Positions 1 to 49,296 of a DNA stretch of 64,000 nucleotides are shown piece by piece. Under the pieces are notes generated by a model. That model had not been told where the DNA came from, did not search any database, and saw only the letters and a list, made by a program, of their open reading frames with translations. The stretch comes from Helicobacter sp. MIT 99-5507. GTDB lineage: Bacteria; Campylobacterota; Campylobacteria; Campylobacterales; Helicobacteraceae. Position 1 is the stretch's first letter. Each line of letters opens with the position of its first letter. A program made the translations under genes and the position numbers. Location of the stretch: contig NZ_NXLO01000004.1 in NCBI RefSeq assembly GCF_003364295.1, positions 186,001 to 250,000 on the forward strand. The letters are read 5' to 3'.

Positions 1-967
1 TGGATTTAATGTATATGGTAATGGTTTTTCATTTGGATTAGGTGGTTGGGCTGCTATTCCTATTTATGAAAATACTAAGAAAAATGCAGATAATACTTAT
101 AAAGATATATTTGTATTAAGTGAAATATATTTTGGATATGATAGCAAGCCATTTGGAATAACACTTGGTAGATACGATACAAATCAAATGGGTTATGAGT
201 GGTTTAGTGGTCATAATGAAGGTGCTTCTATTAGATTTGGTGTTGGTAATTTTATGAATATATGGGCATTATATTCTTATGAACAAGCTTTCCAATTCCA
301 AAGAGTAAATAGAGAGACTTCAAGTCAAATCAATGCTTTATGGAATTATAAAAGACATGCAGGTAATAATCATTTAGCAGCAGGAGGTATTGATTTCTTT
401 TTTGGTGATGTATTTACTATATCTCCATATGCATATTTTGTAACAGATCAAATTGTTGCACCTGGTGTTACATTGGATTTATTACTAGGTAAAAAGACTG
501 ATTTATATTCTCAAACTCAATTTAAATATACATATATGGATGGTATTGGTAAATTAAAATCAATTAATTCAGGACAATTATTTTTAATCGATCAAGAGTT
601 TGGTTACAATTGGTTTAAATTAGGTGGTGGTTATTATAAAACTACAGGAAATGGTGTAGGACATTTATCTTCTTATGGTGATAGCAGTAGATTCTATGGT
701 GGTATGGTAGGTGCAAATTTCTACAATAAAGCTACAGCTCCATATTTTAATGGCAAACAATCTACTTGGTATGCTTTTATGGGTGCTAGACATAATATGT
801 TTAAGTTTGACTTATTGTATGCAAATGGTGGATACAAAGAGCTATCAGCATTATTATCACTTGTATTATTTAATCACTTAGAATTTGGTGCTGGATATAT
901 AGATTTAGCAAATATTGGAAACAATAAAAATAATTATGTAACTGGATTTATCAAAGCAATATGGTAA
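1..967 (+). CDS. Outer membrane porin-like beta-barrel protein, 5' partial
   Basis: The reading frame is open from the first base of the window, so the gene begins upstream and the first in-frame ATG at 188 is internal. About 320 residues are visible. They are rich in Gly, Tyr, Phe and Asn, with alternating polar and apolar residues typical of beta strands, and the chain ends in an aromatic residue (KAIW), the usual C-terminal signature of outer-membrane barrels. The motif GRYDTNQMGYEW resembles Helicobacter Hof-type or Campylobacter major porins. The likely role is diffusion of small solutes across the outer membrane. A strong hairpin follows the stop codon. Family membership is inferred from overall style; the signal peptide is outside the window. 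Confidence 0.6.
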   Translation, partial: GFNVYGNGFSFGLGGWAAIPIYENTKKNADNTYKDIFVLSEIYFGYDSKPFGITLGRYDTNQMGYEWFSGHNEGASIRFGVGNFMNIWALYSYEQAFQFQRVNRETSSQINALWNYKRHAGNNHLAAGGIDFFFGDVFTISPYAYFVTDQIVAPGVTLDLLLGKKTDLYSQTQFKYTYMDGIGKLKSINSGQLFLIDQEFGYNWFKLGGGYYKTTGNGVGHLSSYGDSSRFYGGMVGANFYNKATAPYFNGKQSTWYAFMGARHNMFKFDLLYANGGYKELSALLSLVLFNHLEFGAGYIDLANIGNNKNNYVTGFIKAIW

Positions 968-973
968 ATCAAA

Positions 974-999
974 CTAATAAAGGGTTATCCCTTTATTAG
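974..999. terminator. Bidirectional hairpin terminator between convergent genes
   Basis: Perfect inverted repeat: CTAATAAAGGG at 974-984, loop TTAT, CCCTTTATTAG at 989-999. It lies between the porin stop codon and the stop codon of the convergent cytochrome gene, so it can serve both directions. Confidence 0.75.
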
Positions 1000-1002
1000 C
1001 AT

Positions 1003-1329
1003 TTATTGTGGATTTAAAAAGATATATAGAGATACTACTTCAGATACGCTAAGATTATATTTTGGCATAAAACTCTTTCCAAGTTTCAATGCTTCTTCAA
1101 ACTTATCAAATGAGATACCTGTTATTTTTGGTGCTATTATTGGCTTTAATTTGCCATTTTGCTTGATATAACTTATTATTGTTCCTTCTCCATATTGTCC
1201 GTGACATTTAATACAGCCAATGCCTCTTGGATTCTTGTATAATGCTTTGCCATATTCATAAGGGCTTAAAAAATGATTACTATAAGCAATAGAACACAAT
1301 AATATTGATATTAAAAAAATCTTTTTCAT
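1003..1329 (-). CDS. Small periplasmic c-type cytochrome
   Basis: A 108-residue protein with a Sec signal peptide (MKKIFLISILLCSIAYS) and one haem-binding CIKCH motif at about residues 39-43. A methionine in the later segment KSFMPKY could be the sixth haem ligand. This is the size and layout of a single-domain class I cytochrome c working in periplasmic electron transfer. Its redox partner cannot be told from the context: the divergent neighbour is folD and the convergent one a porin. Start ATG is preceded by an AAGG-type ribosome site. Haem attachment is secure from the motif; the specific role is unknown. Confidence 0.8.
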   Translation of the reverse strand: MKKIFLISILLCSIAYSNHFLSPYEYGKALYKNPRGIGCIKCHGQYGEGTIISYIKQNGKLKPIIAPKITGISFDKFEEALKLGKSFMPKYNLSVSEVVSLYIFLNPQ

Positions 1330-1405
1330 TTTTTTACCTTTAGAATAAAATATAGTAATTCTAGTAAATATTATTCAAACATAAGTATTTAAATCTTTAT
1401 TTTAT

Positions 1406-1411
1406 TATAAT
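1406..1411 (+). promoter_or_regulatory. Candidate -10 box for the folD operon
   Basis: TATAAT at 1406-1411 lies about 28 bases before the folD start, in the AT-rich gap between divergent genes. No good -35 is seen, which is normal for sigma-70 promoters of Helicobacter and Campylobacter. Prediction only. Confidence 0.35.
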
Positions 1412-1439
1412 TACACTTTATTTTAAGCAAAGGCATTGT

Positions 1440-2294
1440 TTGAATATTTTAAATGGAAAGGCATATAGCCAAGAGATTGAAAAAGAATTATCTATAGAAG
1501 TCGCTAGATTAAAAGATTTTAATATTACCCCATGCTTATATGTGATTTTGGTAGGTAATGATCCTGCATCATTTAGCTATGTAACAATGAAAAACAAGGC
1601 ATGCAATAGAGTTGGTATAGAATCTAAGATAATTAGATTTGAAGAGAGCGTATCTCAAGATGAATTATTAAATGAAATATATAAATTAAATAATGATAAA
1701 AAAGTCAATGGAATCTTAGTGCAACTTCCACTTCCAAAGCATATTAATTCAAGTGCTATTTTAGAATCTATTGATATCAATAAAGATGTAGATGGCTTTC
1801 ACCCTTATAATATGGGTAGATTATTTTGTAATTTAGATTCTTTATTTCCTGCCACGCCTCTTGGGATTATGATGCTTTTAAATCATTATAATATAGATGT
1901 AAAAGGTAAAGATGTTGTGATTGTTGGTGCAAGCAATATAGTAGGCAAACCACTTTCATTATTGATGTTAAATGCTGGTGCTAGCGTATCTATATGTCAT
2001 ATATTAACAAAAGATGTCAAAAAATATACAAAAGATGCAGATATCGTCTGTGTTGGTGTTGGAAAAGTAAAACTGCTTAGCGATGATATGATAAAAGATG
2101 GTGCAATTATAATTGATATAGGTATTAATAAACTTGATGATGGAAGTATAGTTGGAGATGTTGATTTTAAAAATGTATCTATAAAAGCTTCTTATATTAC
2201 GCCAGTTCCTGGTGGTGTTGGACCTATGACAATTAGTGCATTGCTATCAAACACAATAAAAGCTACAAAATTGCAATATAAGGCTATTAAATGA
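1440..2294 (+). CDS. folD: Bifunctional methylenetetrahydrofolate dehydrogenase / methenyltetrahydrofolate cyclohydrolase FolD
   Basis: FolD interconverts 5,10-methylene-THF, 5,10-methenyl-THF and 10-formyl-THF in cytoplasmic one-carbon metabolism. The 284 residues match family length. Visible signatures: YVTMKNKA, holding the catalytic Lys region, GILVQLPLP, KDVDGFHPYNMG, the NADP-binding stretch VIVGASNIVGKP and the C-terminal PVPGGVGPMT. The start is a TTG at 1440, chosen because AAAGG at 1429-1433 sits six bases upstream and the protein then begins MNILNGKAYS as expected. The stop overlaps the lepB start (ATGA), so the two are translationally coupled; a folD-lepB pair is also what I recall from H. 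pylori. Confidence 0.96.
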   Translation: MNILNGKAYSQEIEKELSIEVARLKDFNITPCLYVILVGNDPASFSYVTMKNKACNRVGIESKIIRFEESVSQDELLNEIYKLNNDKKVNGILVQLPLPKHINSSAILESIDINKDVDGFHPYNMGRLFCNLDSLFPATPLGIMMLLNHYNIDVKGKDVVIVGASNIVGKPLSLLMLNAGASVSICHILTKDVKKYTKDADIVCVGVGKVKLLSDDMIKDGAIIIDIGINKLDDGSIVGDVDFKNVSIKASYITPVPGGVGPMTISALLSNTIKATKLQYKAIK

Positions 2295-3190
2295 ATTTCT
2301 TAAAGAATCTATATAGATTTTCTACTACTTGGACTGGCACAATTATTATTGTTTTGTTTGTTATATTTTTTATAGCACAAGCTTTTGTTATTCCAAGTAG
2401 ATCGATGGTAAATACTCTTTATGAAGGTGATTTTTTATTTGTTAAAAAATTTTCATATGGGATTCCAATTCCTAGAATCCCTTGGATTGAAGTGCCTATA
2501 TTGCCAGATTTTAATAAAAATGGACATATCATAGAAGGAAAGCGACCAAATAGAGGTGAGATTGTCATTTTTATTCCACCGCATATAGAAAAACAATATT
2601 TTGTAAAAAGGACTTTTGCGACAGGTGGTGATGAGGTTGTTATGGGTAAAGATGGGCTATATTTGCGTCCAAAAGAAGGTGATAACTTTATAAAAGAGAA
2701 TTTTCCAAATGCTATTACTAAAGATATTTTAGGCAGGACTTTTATCTATGATCCGTATTTAGATAAATATAAAGGTGTGCATTATGGAGATGAACCTACA
2801 GCTTATAAATTATTATTAGATATTGCAGATCATGGGGTAGGTGTAATGAGTAGAATACAAGAAAATGGTGAGACTTATTTTTATTATAAAGTTGAAGATG
2901 ATCATTTTTTTATGATTGGTGATAATAGAGATGGAAGTGAAGATTCTAGATTCTGGGGTTCTATATCGTATTCTGCGGTGATTGGCACACCTTGGTTTAT
3001 ATATCTTAGCCTAAATCTACCAAATAGTAATGAAGCAAAATTGCACCCAGATAATATATATAAGATTCGCTGGGAGAGAATGTTTAAAGGAATTGAAGGG
3101 ATAGAGAATCTTAGTGCTAAAAATATAGAAAATGATGCATTTAATACAGAAGAATTTAAAATGCAGGATTTTATAGAATCTAATCCATAG
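2291..3190 (+). CDS. lepB: Signal peptidase I (LepB)
   Basis: Membrane-bound serine protease that removes signal peptides from exported proteins. The 299 residues start with a transmembrane segment (about residues 14-30) followed by the catalytic-serine motif PSRSMVNTL, then the general-base lysine region (FVKRTFATGGDEV) and the conserved GDNRDGSEDSR box near the C-terminus. The spacing between these boxes is large, as in other Helicobacter and Campylobacter LepB proteins. It overlaps folD by four bases and is followed after nine bases by the M50 protease gene, all in one operon. Confidence 0.95.
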   Translation: MNFLKNLYRFSTTWTGTIIIVLFVIFFIAQAFVIPSRSMVNTLYEGDFLFVKKFSYGIPIPRIPWIEVPILPDFNKNGHIIEGKRPNRGEIVIFIPPHIEKQYFVKRTFATGGDEVVMGKDGLYLRPKEGDNFIKENFPNAITKDILGRTFIYDPYLDKYKGVHYGDEPTAYKLLLDIADHGVGVMSRIQENGETYFYYKVEDDHFFMIGDNRDGSEDSRFWGSISYSAVIGTPWFIYLSLNLPNSNEAKLHPDNIYKIRWERMFKGIEGIENLSAKNIENDAFNTEEFKMQDFIESNP

Positions 3191-3199
3191 GCTTTCAAT

Positions 3200-3856
3200 A
3201 TGAGTTACCTTAATATAACATCTGTGGTTATATCATTATGTGCGTTACTTGTGGCTATTATTGGTCATGAGATAATGCATGGTTTGGCTGCTTTGTATTA
3301 TGGCGATGATACTGCAAAAGTTGCTAAACGACTTAGTATAAATCCAATAAAACATATAGATTTAGTTGGTTCTATAATATTGCCTATTAGCTTAGTATTA
3401 TTACATGCTCCATTTATGTTTGGCTGGGCAAAGCCTGTGCCAGTAAATATTAGAGAAGTTATCAAAAATGGGGGCTATAATGCTGCTATAATAGTTTCTC
3501 TTGCAGGAATAATTTATAATTTTTTATTGGCTATTTGTGCATATTTATTGCTTAAAAGTGGAATAATATTTAAATATGACATAGAAGTTGTATATTATTT
3601 TTTAATAAATTTAATTATTATAAATATAATACTTGGTTTTTTCAATCTACTTCCTATTCCTCCGCTTGATGGCTCACAGGCACTTGGATACTTATCACTT
3701 AAATTTAATAATGATACTATTCCTATATTTTTTAATAAAATAGAGAGATTTGGTATTTTTATTTTGATTGGAATTTTACTAATTCCACCAGTTGCTAAAA
3801 TTATACTTTTACCACCTTTTCTTATTTCAAAATTTCTTTTAAAGGGGATTATGTGA
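3200..3856 (+). CDS. Site-2-protease-like M50 family membrane metalloprotease
   Basis: A 218-residue integral membrane protein. The zinc motif HEIMH (HEXXH) lies in the first transmembrane segment and the second ligand motif NLLPIPPLDGSQ is in the C-terminal half, so both halves of the M50 active site are intact. It is a short form with no PDZ domain, like the YwhC/Rip-type proteases that sit beside lepB in Helicobacter. The substrate is unknown; regulated intramembrane proteolysis is the family role. It overlaps the rpiB start. Confidence 0.88.
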   Translation: MSYLNITSVVISLCALLVAIIGHEIMHGLAALYYGDDTAKVAKRLSINPIKHIDLVGSIILPISLVLLHAPFMFGWAKPVPVNIREVIKNGGYNAAIIVSLAGIIYNFLLAICAYLLLKSGIIFKYDIEVVYYFLINLIIINIILGFFNLLPIPPLDGSQALGYLSLKFNNDTIPIFFNKIERFGIFILIGILLIPPVAKIILLPPFLISKFLLKGIM

Positions 3857-4293
3857 CTTGTGTTATTGGATGTGATCATGCGGGATTGAGATTGGCTTAT
3901 GAGGTAATTGATTTATTATCAAATATGGATAATGTAGATAAGATTGTTGAGATTATTCCACAAGATTCTACAAAAGTGGATTATCCAGATTTTGCAGCTT
4001 TGGTATGTAAAGAAGTAGCAAATAAGCAAGATCATTTTGGTATTTTGATATGTGGAAGTGGCATAGGTATGTCTATTTGTGCAAATAAGATAAGTGGCAT
4101 TAGAGCGGCTTTGTGTGTCAATGAATATATGGCTAGGTATGCACGATTACATAATGATGCAAATGTATTATGTCTTGGTGAACGTTTGATGGGCTTTGGT
4201 ATTGCAAGAGATGTAGTTAATATATTTTTAAATACAAAATTTGAAGCTGGTAGGCATAAACTTAGAGTTGATAAGGTAAATGCACTTCTTTAA
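3853..4293 (+). CDS. rpiB: Ribose-5-phosphate isomerase B
   Basis: Interconverts ribose-5-phosphate and ribulose-5-phosphate in the pentose phosphate pathway. The 146-residue RpiB/LacAB fold shows GCDHAGL at the N-terminus, the anion-hole segment ICGSGIGMSICANK with the catalytic Cys region, and RLHNDANVLCLGER. The start is a GTG at 3853 that overlaps the upstream stop codon, with AAAGGGG at 3841-3847 as ribosome site five bases away. Older annotations sometimes call this family galactose-6-phosphate isomerase; no lac-type genes are nearby, so RpiB is preferred. Confidence 0.94.
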   Translation: MTCVIGCDHAGLRLAYEVIDLLSNMDNVDKIVEIIPQDSTKVDYPDFAALVCKEVANKQDHFGILICGSGIGMSICANKISGIRAALCVNEYMARYARLHNDANVLCLGERLMGFGIARDVVNIFLNTKFEAGRHKLRVDKVNALL

Positions 4294-4328
4294 AACTAGA
4301 ATAGAAATTTTTATAAAAAAGGTTAATA

Positions 4329-5318
4329 ATGGATTCTAAAAAAGTAGTTTTTTCTGGTATTCAACCAACCGGAAACATACATTTAGGAAATTATTTGGGT
4401 GCTGTGAAAAATTGGGTTGATATGCAAGATATGTATGACAATATTTTTTGTATTGTAAATTCTCATGCAATCACAATAAAGCAGAATCCAAAAGAATTAA
4501 TCCAAAAGACACTAGATTTAGCTTGCATATTGATTGCTTGTGGAATAGATCCAAAAAAATCAAATCTATTTATTCAAAGCAAAATTGATTATCACCCAGC
4601 TTTAGCGTGGATTCTAGATTGTAATATTTTTATGGGTGATATGACTAGAATGACTCAATTTAAAGATAAATCAAATAAAAATCCAAAAAATATAAATGTC
4701 GGACTTTTTAATTATCCAGCATTAATGGCAGCTGATATTTTATTGTATCAAGTTGATTTAGTGCCTGTTGGAAGCGACCAAAAACAGCATATTGAACTTA
4801 CAAGAAATGTCGCTATGAAGTTTAATAGAGATTTTGGGGAATGCTTTAAAATACCAGAACCCCTTATACTAAAAGAAGGTGCTAGAGTGATGGGATTGGA
4901 TGATCCAACAACTAAAATGAGTAAAAGTGCAACAGGTAAAAATCACGCAATATTTTTATTAGATGAACCAGATGTGATTATATCAAAGATAAAAAAAGCA
5001 ACCACAGATTCTAACTCCAATATAGTTTTTGATGAAAACAGGGCGGGTGTTTATAATCTTTTGTGTATATATGAAGTATTGAGTAAAAAAAATAGAGCAA
5101 GTATAGAAGATGAATTTGCTAACAAGGGTTATGGTGTGTTTAAAAATGCGCTTGCAGAAATCATTATCGATACATTGCGTCCAATACAAACAAAATATAG
5201 AGAATTAAATAATGATAAAAAATATATACAAGAGATTCTGCAAAATGGCTTAGATTCTGTATTGCCAAGAGCAGAATCTACATATAATAAGGCTAAAGAA
5301 TTGATAGGTTTATTATAG
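4329..5318 (+). CDS. trpS: Tryptophanyl-tRNA synthetase
   Basis: Class I aminoacyl-tRNA synthetase charging tRNA-Trp in the cytoplasm. The 329 residues are full length. The HIGH-type motif appears as [11 protein letters not shown] after GIQPT, and the KMSKS loop as KMSKSATG near residue 200. Between them are [12 protein letters not shown] and PVGSDQKQH, typical of bacterial TrpRS. It sits inside the folD-lepB-rpiB / apt-dedA-pepA neighbourhood; as I recall, in H. pylori trpS lies instead near secG, so order differs locally here. The start ATG follows AAAAAGG. Confidence 0.97.
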
Positions 5319-5411
5319 TGTTGTAATAAAATTTACTTAAAAATTTATAGAGATTGTATTATATTTTGATAGAATCTAAGGAATATTTTACTCTCTAATT
5401 CAAGGAATACA

Positions 5412-5753
5412 ATGTCATCTGAAATAACGCACTGGTTCATACTAAGTGCATTTATATTATTTGTATTATTTATGGTAGTAAAAACTTTTTTTTATAAAAA
5501 TATTGCTCAAAGAGAAGAAAAAACTTCTGCATCTATTAAATTAACACTGCATGAAGCAGAGATCTTAATAAGAAAACATCAATTGCAATTACAAAGGGCA
5601 CTTGGAAATATAGATATTTTAACAGAAGAAATGAATACAATGAAAAATGAGATAAAAGTCTTAAAACAACGCAATTCTCAATATAAAATTGAAAGTGATA
5701 AATATAAAACAAAAATAAGAGATTTAGAGCAAAAAATAGAAGCTTTATTATAA
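5412..5753 (+). CDS. Small membrane-anchored coiled-coil protein of unknown function
   Basis: A 113-residue protein with one N-terminal transmembrane segment (about residues 9-28) and a charged heptad-like region to the end (EEMNTMKNEIKVLKQR, KTKIRDLEQKIEAL) that should form a coiled coil on one side of the membrane. No catalytic motif is seen. Start ATG has CAAGGAA upstream. It precedes apt by 15 bases; a small hypothetical gene is also found before apt in H. pylori as I recall, so it is probably a genuine conserved gene. A run of eight Ts at 5486-5493 lies in the coding sequence but the frame is intact. Confidence 0.7.
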   Translation: MSSEITHWFILSAFILFVLFMVVKTFFYKNIAQREEKTSASIKLTLHEAEILIRKHQLQLQRALGNIDILTEEMNTMKNEIKVLKQRNSQYKIESDKYKTKIRDLEQKIEALL

Positions 5754-48205: not shown

Positions 48206-49222
48206 TTATTTTAAATATATATCAAATTCTTTTTTTTCTATACATTCTGCGATAATGCTAGAATCTATTCCTTCATTATTTAGAATCTTATTTAATTCAT
48301 TTGCATTTTTATAATCCAAAGCTATCAAAAGCCCACCAGAAGTTTGTGCGTCATAATAGATAATATCATTTATATTTGTATTATTTTTTATTCTAGATTC
48401 TAAAGAAGATTTGTTTTTATGACTGCCACCAGGGATAATTCCAGATTCTGAAAAATGAAGCACTTTGTCAAATAACTTTACATTATCTAAATATAGATTG
48501 ATTGAAATCTCTTTATTTGTCATTTCTAACATATGTCCAAGTAGTCCAAATCCTGTTACATCACTTGCAGCATGAATCTCAAATCTTTTTGCAAAATCCA
48601 TTGCATAGTTATTTAGCGTGAGCATTGATTTTACTACATCAAGATTTTTATTAAAATTTAGTGCTCCATTTTTCATCGCTGTAGTTAAGATTCCACTTCC
48701 AATGGGCTTTGTAAGTATGATTTTATCGCCAATTTGTGCAGTATTATTTCTATAATAGATATTATCAAAGATGCCACCTGTTATACTAAGCCCAAATTTT
48801 TGTTCATTGTCATTTATGCTATGTCCGCCAATTAGAGGGCATTTGCATTCTATTAGTTTATTTAGAGCTCCTTGCAAGATTTCATTTGCTTCATTTGTAT
48901 TTATATGAGTTTTATCCCACATAAAAATACTCATAGCACTAAGTGCTTTGGCACCTTTTGCAAATACATCACTAAGTGAATTTGCAGCTGCAATTTGCCC
49001 ATAGATAAATGGATCATCAACAATTGGTGTAATAAAATCTAGACTTTGTGCTAGTAAAATATCACCTACTTTTATGATTCCACAATCATCATTATCTTTG
49101 AAATCAATTAATAGTTGGCTATATTGTGGTTGATTTAAGCCTTTTGTGATTTGTCTTAGGTCTTCCAGACCTACTTTTGCAGCTCAACCAGCACAACTAA
49201 CAAATTGAGTAATCTTTTTCAA
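48206..49222 (-). CDS. selD: Selenide, water dikinase SelD, a selenocysteine-containing protein (in-frame TGA)
   Basis: Makes selenophosphate from selenide and ATP for selenocysteine and selenouridine. Read on the minus strand from TTG 49222 the protein is 338 residues: QFVSCAG-U13-AAKVG, LLIDFKDNDDCGIIKVGD, FITPIVDDPFIYGQIAAANSLSDVFAKGAK, then the rest of the AIRS-like domains (GHSINDNEQKFGLS, SDVTGFGLLGHMLEM, TSGGLLIAL). The TGA at 49186-49184 falls exactly at the catalytic Cys/Sec position and both sides are in one frame, so this is selenocysteine, not a nonsense mutation. An ATG at 48934 would give a protein without the active site. AAGGA at 49231-49235 supports the TTG start. selA, selB and selC are not in the window. 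Confidence 0.92.
49158..49172 (-). promoter_or_regulatory. selD: SECIS-like hairpin downstream of the selD TGA
   Basis: On the coding (minus) strand AGGTCT and AGACCT form a six-base perfect stem around GGA, beginning 11 bases after the TGA. A short hairpin with guanines in the loop at this distance is what bacterial SelB recognises. It encodes part of VGLEDL, so it is inside the coding sequence. Confidence 0.7.
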
Positions 49223-49296
49223 AACAATTTTCCTTACTAAAATTGAATAATTATAGCTATTTTGCTTTAATTTAGAAAAATATTTTAGGAGCATTT

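Follow-up and report, generated by a model that had tools for sequence, protein, structure and literature searches.

We found that the selD gene of Helicobacter sp. MIT 99-5507 almost certainly encodes a selenoprotein, in which UGA codon 13 would be decoded as selenocysteine (Sec) by SelB together with a hairpin in the mRNA; Sec insertion and enzyme activity are what we infer from the DNA. The gene lies in the window, i.e., the whole 64,000-nucleotide stretch analyzed, and the following features, all on the minus strand, were assigned to it:

48206..49222, minus strand: selD, selenide water dikinase (selenophosphate synthetase), with a TTG start, a TAA stop at 48208-48206, and an in-frame TGA predicted to be read as Sec.
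49231..49235, minus strand: AAGGA, a probable ribosome binding site by its sequence, separated from the TTG start by an 8 nt spacer.
49184..49186, minus strand: TGA codon 13, the predicted selenocysteine, in the context SCAG-U-AAKVG.
49158..49172, minus strand: the putative SECIS hairpin AGGTCT-GGA-AGACCT, with stem arms at 49172-49167 and 49163-49158 and the loop GGA at 49166-49164.
48206..48934, minus strand: the truncated ORF of 242 aa, starting at ATG 48934, that a standard gene call with no recoding would report.

The minus-strand frame 49222-48206 corresponded to a full-length SelD of 338 aa with a single in-frame TGA, at codon 13. The initial annotation had placed this TGA at 49186-49184, with both sides read in one frame and at the site where SelD has Cys or Sec, and this was confirmed by a match to the selD equivalog profile TIGR00476 (305.4 bits against a cut-off of 125, E = 4.1e-91) that covered residues 4-305, on both flanks of the TGA. 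The N- and C-terminal AIRS domains were both matched (PF00586 and PF02769). The catalytic Cys or Sec of SelD has an essential Lys three residues later. When GUAAK was aligned to GCGCK of E. coli SelD (3u0o), U13 fell on Cys17 with no gaps and K16 on K20; in the 2yye chain, the residue opposite U13 was the Cys of GCAAKVG. The frame is beyond chance, since the TIGR00476 match spans the TGA, the TGA is conserved in relatives, and the hairpin that follows is both conserved and covarying.

Conservation of the TGA was analyzed by searching for SelD in 121 genomes of the same family, Helicobacteraceae. SelD was present in most genera, and nearly all the genes were flagged with one internal TGA. The codon at the Sec position was read directly in 81 of these genes, being TGA in 80 and TGT (Cys) in one. 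The TGT-containing selD (L068, genome G120) keeps a perfect SECIS stem, GGTCC-GGG-GGACC, and its genome has both selA and tRNA-Sec, suggesting that Sec was replaced by Cys recently. Some other selD matches were split: in G038 (L095) the pieces overlap slightly and are read in different frames, possibly because of a frameshift or an error in assembly, and those in G093 (L093) and G090 (L094) are split by an insertion. In genus g2 (genomes G020-G033), SelA is kept and SelD was not found, and G023 also gave a tRNA-Sec match, a pattern similar to that of the H. pylori lineage, in which SelA has been described as an orphan.

The hairpin of 6-7 bp begins 11 nt after the TGA, exactly where the initial annotation had located the AGGTCT/AGACCT stem, and its 3-nt GGA loop, which begins 17 nt after the TGA, opens with an invariant G. 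Over 77 distinct sequences, the six pairs were standard in 97.8%, three pairs were changed on both sides (15 cells), and the closing pair covaried. None of 500 shuffles matched the observed pairing or covariation, and as a control, pairing dropped to 17-59% when the partner was slid by 1-3 columns. Moreover, RNAalifold recovered the same stem unprompted. The codons after the TGA were strongly skewed, indicating a constraint at the RNA level. All 81 genes had CTG or CCG as the loop codon (CTG in 64/64 with Leu and CCG in 17/17 with Pro), against a background elsewhere in these genes of 5% of Leu codons and 10.5% of Pro codons, respectively; in the window, CTG accounts for 1.4% of Leu codons. 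After the TGA, Gly was encoded by GGT in 79/79 (20% background) and Asp by GAC in 53/81 (14% background). Glu was encoded by GAG in 8/8 cases after CCG and by GAA in 42/51 after CTG, and this synonymous choice preserves the closing pair as C-G or U-A.

The hairpin region, for which a covariance-model search had been proposed in the initial annotation, was then matched with a model built from 25 sequences, none of them from the genus of this genome. This held-out model hit 49186-49149 with 62.5 bits and E = 6.8e-21 (91.5 kb searched), and its next matches in the window had E = 0.59 and above. Genome-wide, selD was the top match of the SelD-trained SECIS model, followed by matches of E = 0.016 and above that spanned only 12-47 bases. 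This model did not reach the hairpins of two other genes described below, fdhA and ybdD; its specificity is thus too high for a full inventory of SECIS elements. The Rfam matches near selD were chance matches only, and no Rfam family covers the hairpin. The fold energy of the single sequence was not significant (z = -1.36), and the case for a SECIS element therefore rests on comparison. On that comparison, we take the hairpin after the selD TGA to be a bacterial SECIS element.

The selA, selB, and selC genes expected by the initial annotation were all present in the genome (1.53 Mb, 99.97% complete). Profile matches were 509.6 bits for selA (TIGR00474) and 283.8 bits for selB (TIGR00475):

G000:C1 (L019:8362-11521): selA-selB, overlapping head to tail.

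The tRNA-Sec gene (selC), with anticodon TCA, lies just upstream of selA-selB on the opposite strand, in a divergent orientation, and the three genes form one cluster. Its score of 47.8 bits was just over the 47-bit cut-off, and ARAGORN also called the gene, with anticodon TCA. The genome contains mnmH (tRNA 2-selenouridine synthase) as well, and thus selenophosphate probably also serves tRNA selenouridine via MnmH.

Three other readings of the TGA were weighed against Sec insertion. It is highly improbable that the UGA is a real stop and that a shorter SelD begins downstream, at ATG 48934. An ORF finder does give this 242-aa ORF (48206-48934), but its product would have neither the catalytic residue nor the conserved GLEDL segment, and about half of the N-terminal AIRS domain (45-148) would be missing. 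As the initial annotation had pointed out, 96 codons including the active site are lost from it, and these upstream codons are conserved as protein in relatives; moreover, the constrained SECIS element comes after the UGA. Equally improbable is that the UGA is read by near-cognate read-through or has been reassigned to Trp. We found no support for either, and TGA ends 8 of the 38 window ORFs longer than 250 codons, indicating that it is an ordinary stop here; other SelDs have Cys at the Sec position, and the genome contains a full Sec system. The least probable reading is a sequencing error, named as one possible refutation in the initial annotation, or a pseudogene broken by a stop: a lone in-frame stop near the 5' end would fit it, but the TGA stands in 80/81 independent genomes, the protein is constrained on either side of it, and conservation in about 80 genomes refutes this reading.

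Decoding of the UGA as Sec agrees with other genes of this genome, in which further selenoproteins had been predicted. The gene for the formate dehydrogenase alpha subunit (fdhA) carries a TGA within its reading frame that falls on the Sec site, U177 (HQARI-U-HSPTV). A second gene, of the DUF466/YbdD family, adjoins a gene labeled cstA-like from its sequence and is a third selenoprotein candidate, with a putative C-terminal Sec:

G000:C4:67499-67675, L105:1447-1680: DUF466/YbdD gene, ending in ...SSKC-TGA-TAA (Cys-TGA-TAA).

The hairpin GGTAA-AGTT-TTACC lies 3' of its TGA, and C-terminal Sec in DUF466/YbdD has been published for H. hepaticus. In genera g3 and g4, ybdD ends in Cys-Cys in 12/12 of the relatives whose gene was read; family searches found no selA or true selD in these genera, and the Cys-Cys endings provide a natural control for the C-terminal Sec. 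The ybdD genes of two Sec-using genomes (L110 in G066 and L112 in G064) also end in Cys-Cys and retain the hairpin after the stop codon (TCGCAAGGTTTGCGA and TCGCAAGGTCTGCGA), apparently as fossil SECIS elements after Sec-to-Cys reversion. A SelW/Rdx gene was not found by the targeted family search of the genome. As selenoproteins were sought by targeted family searches only, further ones may exist.

From these elements, SelA would make Sec-tRNA-Sec from Ser-tRNA-Sec and selenophosphate, and SelB carrying Sec-tRNA-Sec would bind the hairpin that closely follows UGA codon 13 and deliver Sec at this codon. This would yield a selenophosphate synthetase of 338 residues that uses Sec as its catalytic nucleophile and whose product would supply Sec synthesis for FdhA, the DUF466/YbdD protein, and SelD itself, as well as MnmH-dependent tRNA selenouridine. 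Because full-length SelD requires SelD's own product, the selenium pathway of Helicobacteraceae might conceivably reinforce itself and work like an on/off switch in which a lack of selenium yields truncated SelD; we regard this idea as rather unlikely.

The sequence around the Sec site was also compared with known SelDs. The protein of PDB 2yye/2zod shares the GxAAKVG active-site context and matched with 201 bits over the full length; it is more distant in sequence, and its crystal chain has Cys at the Sec site. The native protein has Sec there. E. coli SelD (3u0o) belongs to the same family but has Cys in a CxC motif, with no recoding. A survey of epsilonproteobacterial selenoproteins (PMC4607533) counts SelD among the selenoproteins as well as in the Sec machinery. 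The SECIS elements it describes are 5/6-bp hairpins in which a loop guanosine is invariant, and it also reports Fdh and SelW genes that contain TGA, along with DUF466 with C-terminal Sec; a selenophosphate synthase had also been predicted in H. hepaticus (PMC1242214). The hairpin found here, with a UGA-to-loop distance of 17 nt and G as the first base of its 3-nt loop, fits the SECIS description of the survey, and catalytic Sec, SECIS type, SelA/B/C, and the FdhA and DUF466 selenoproteins are all common to both, the only difference being the species.

Collectively, Sec-SelD is already well established among Helicobacter and Campylobacter relatives and is the norm in Helicobacteraceae, and the picture of selenium use in this family is unchanged by this selD. 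The annotation of one gene is corrected, its N-terminal part and active site being otherwise missing; the clean covariation set provides a family-wide record of the SelD SECIS; and a complete Sec system is confirmed in Helicobacter sp. MIT 99-5507.
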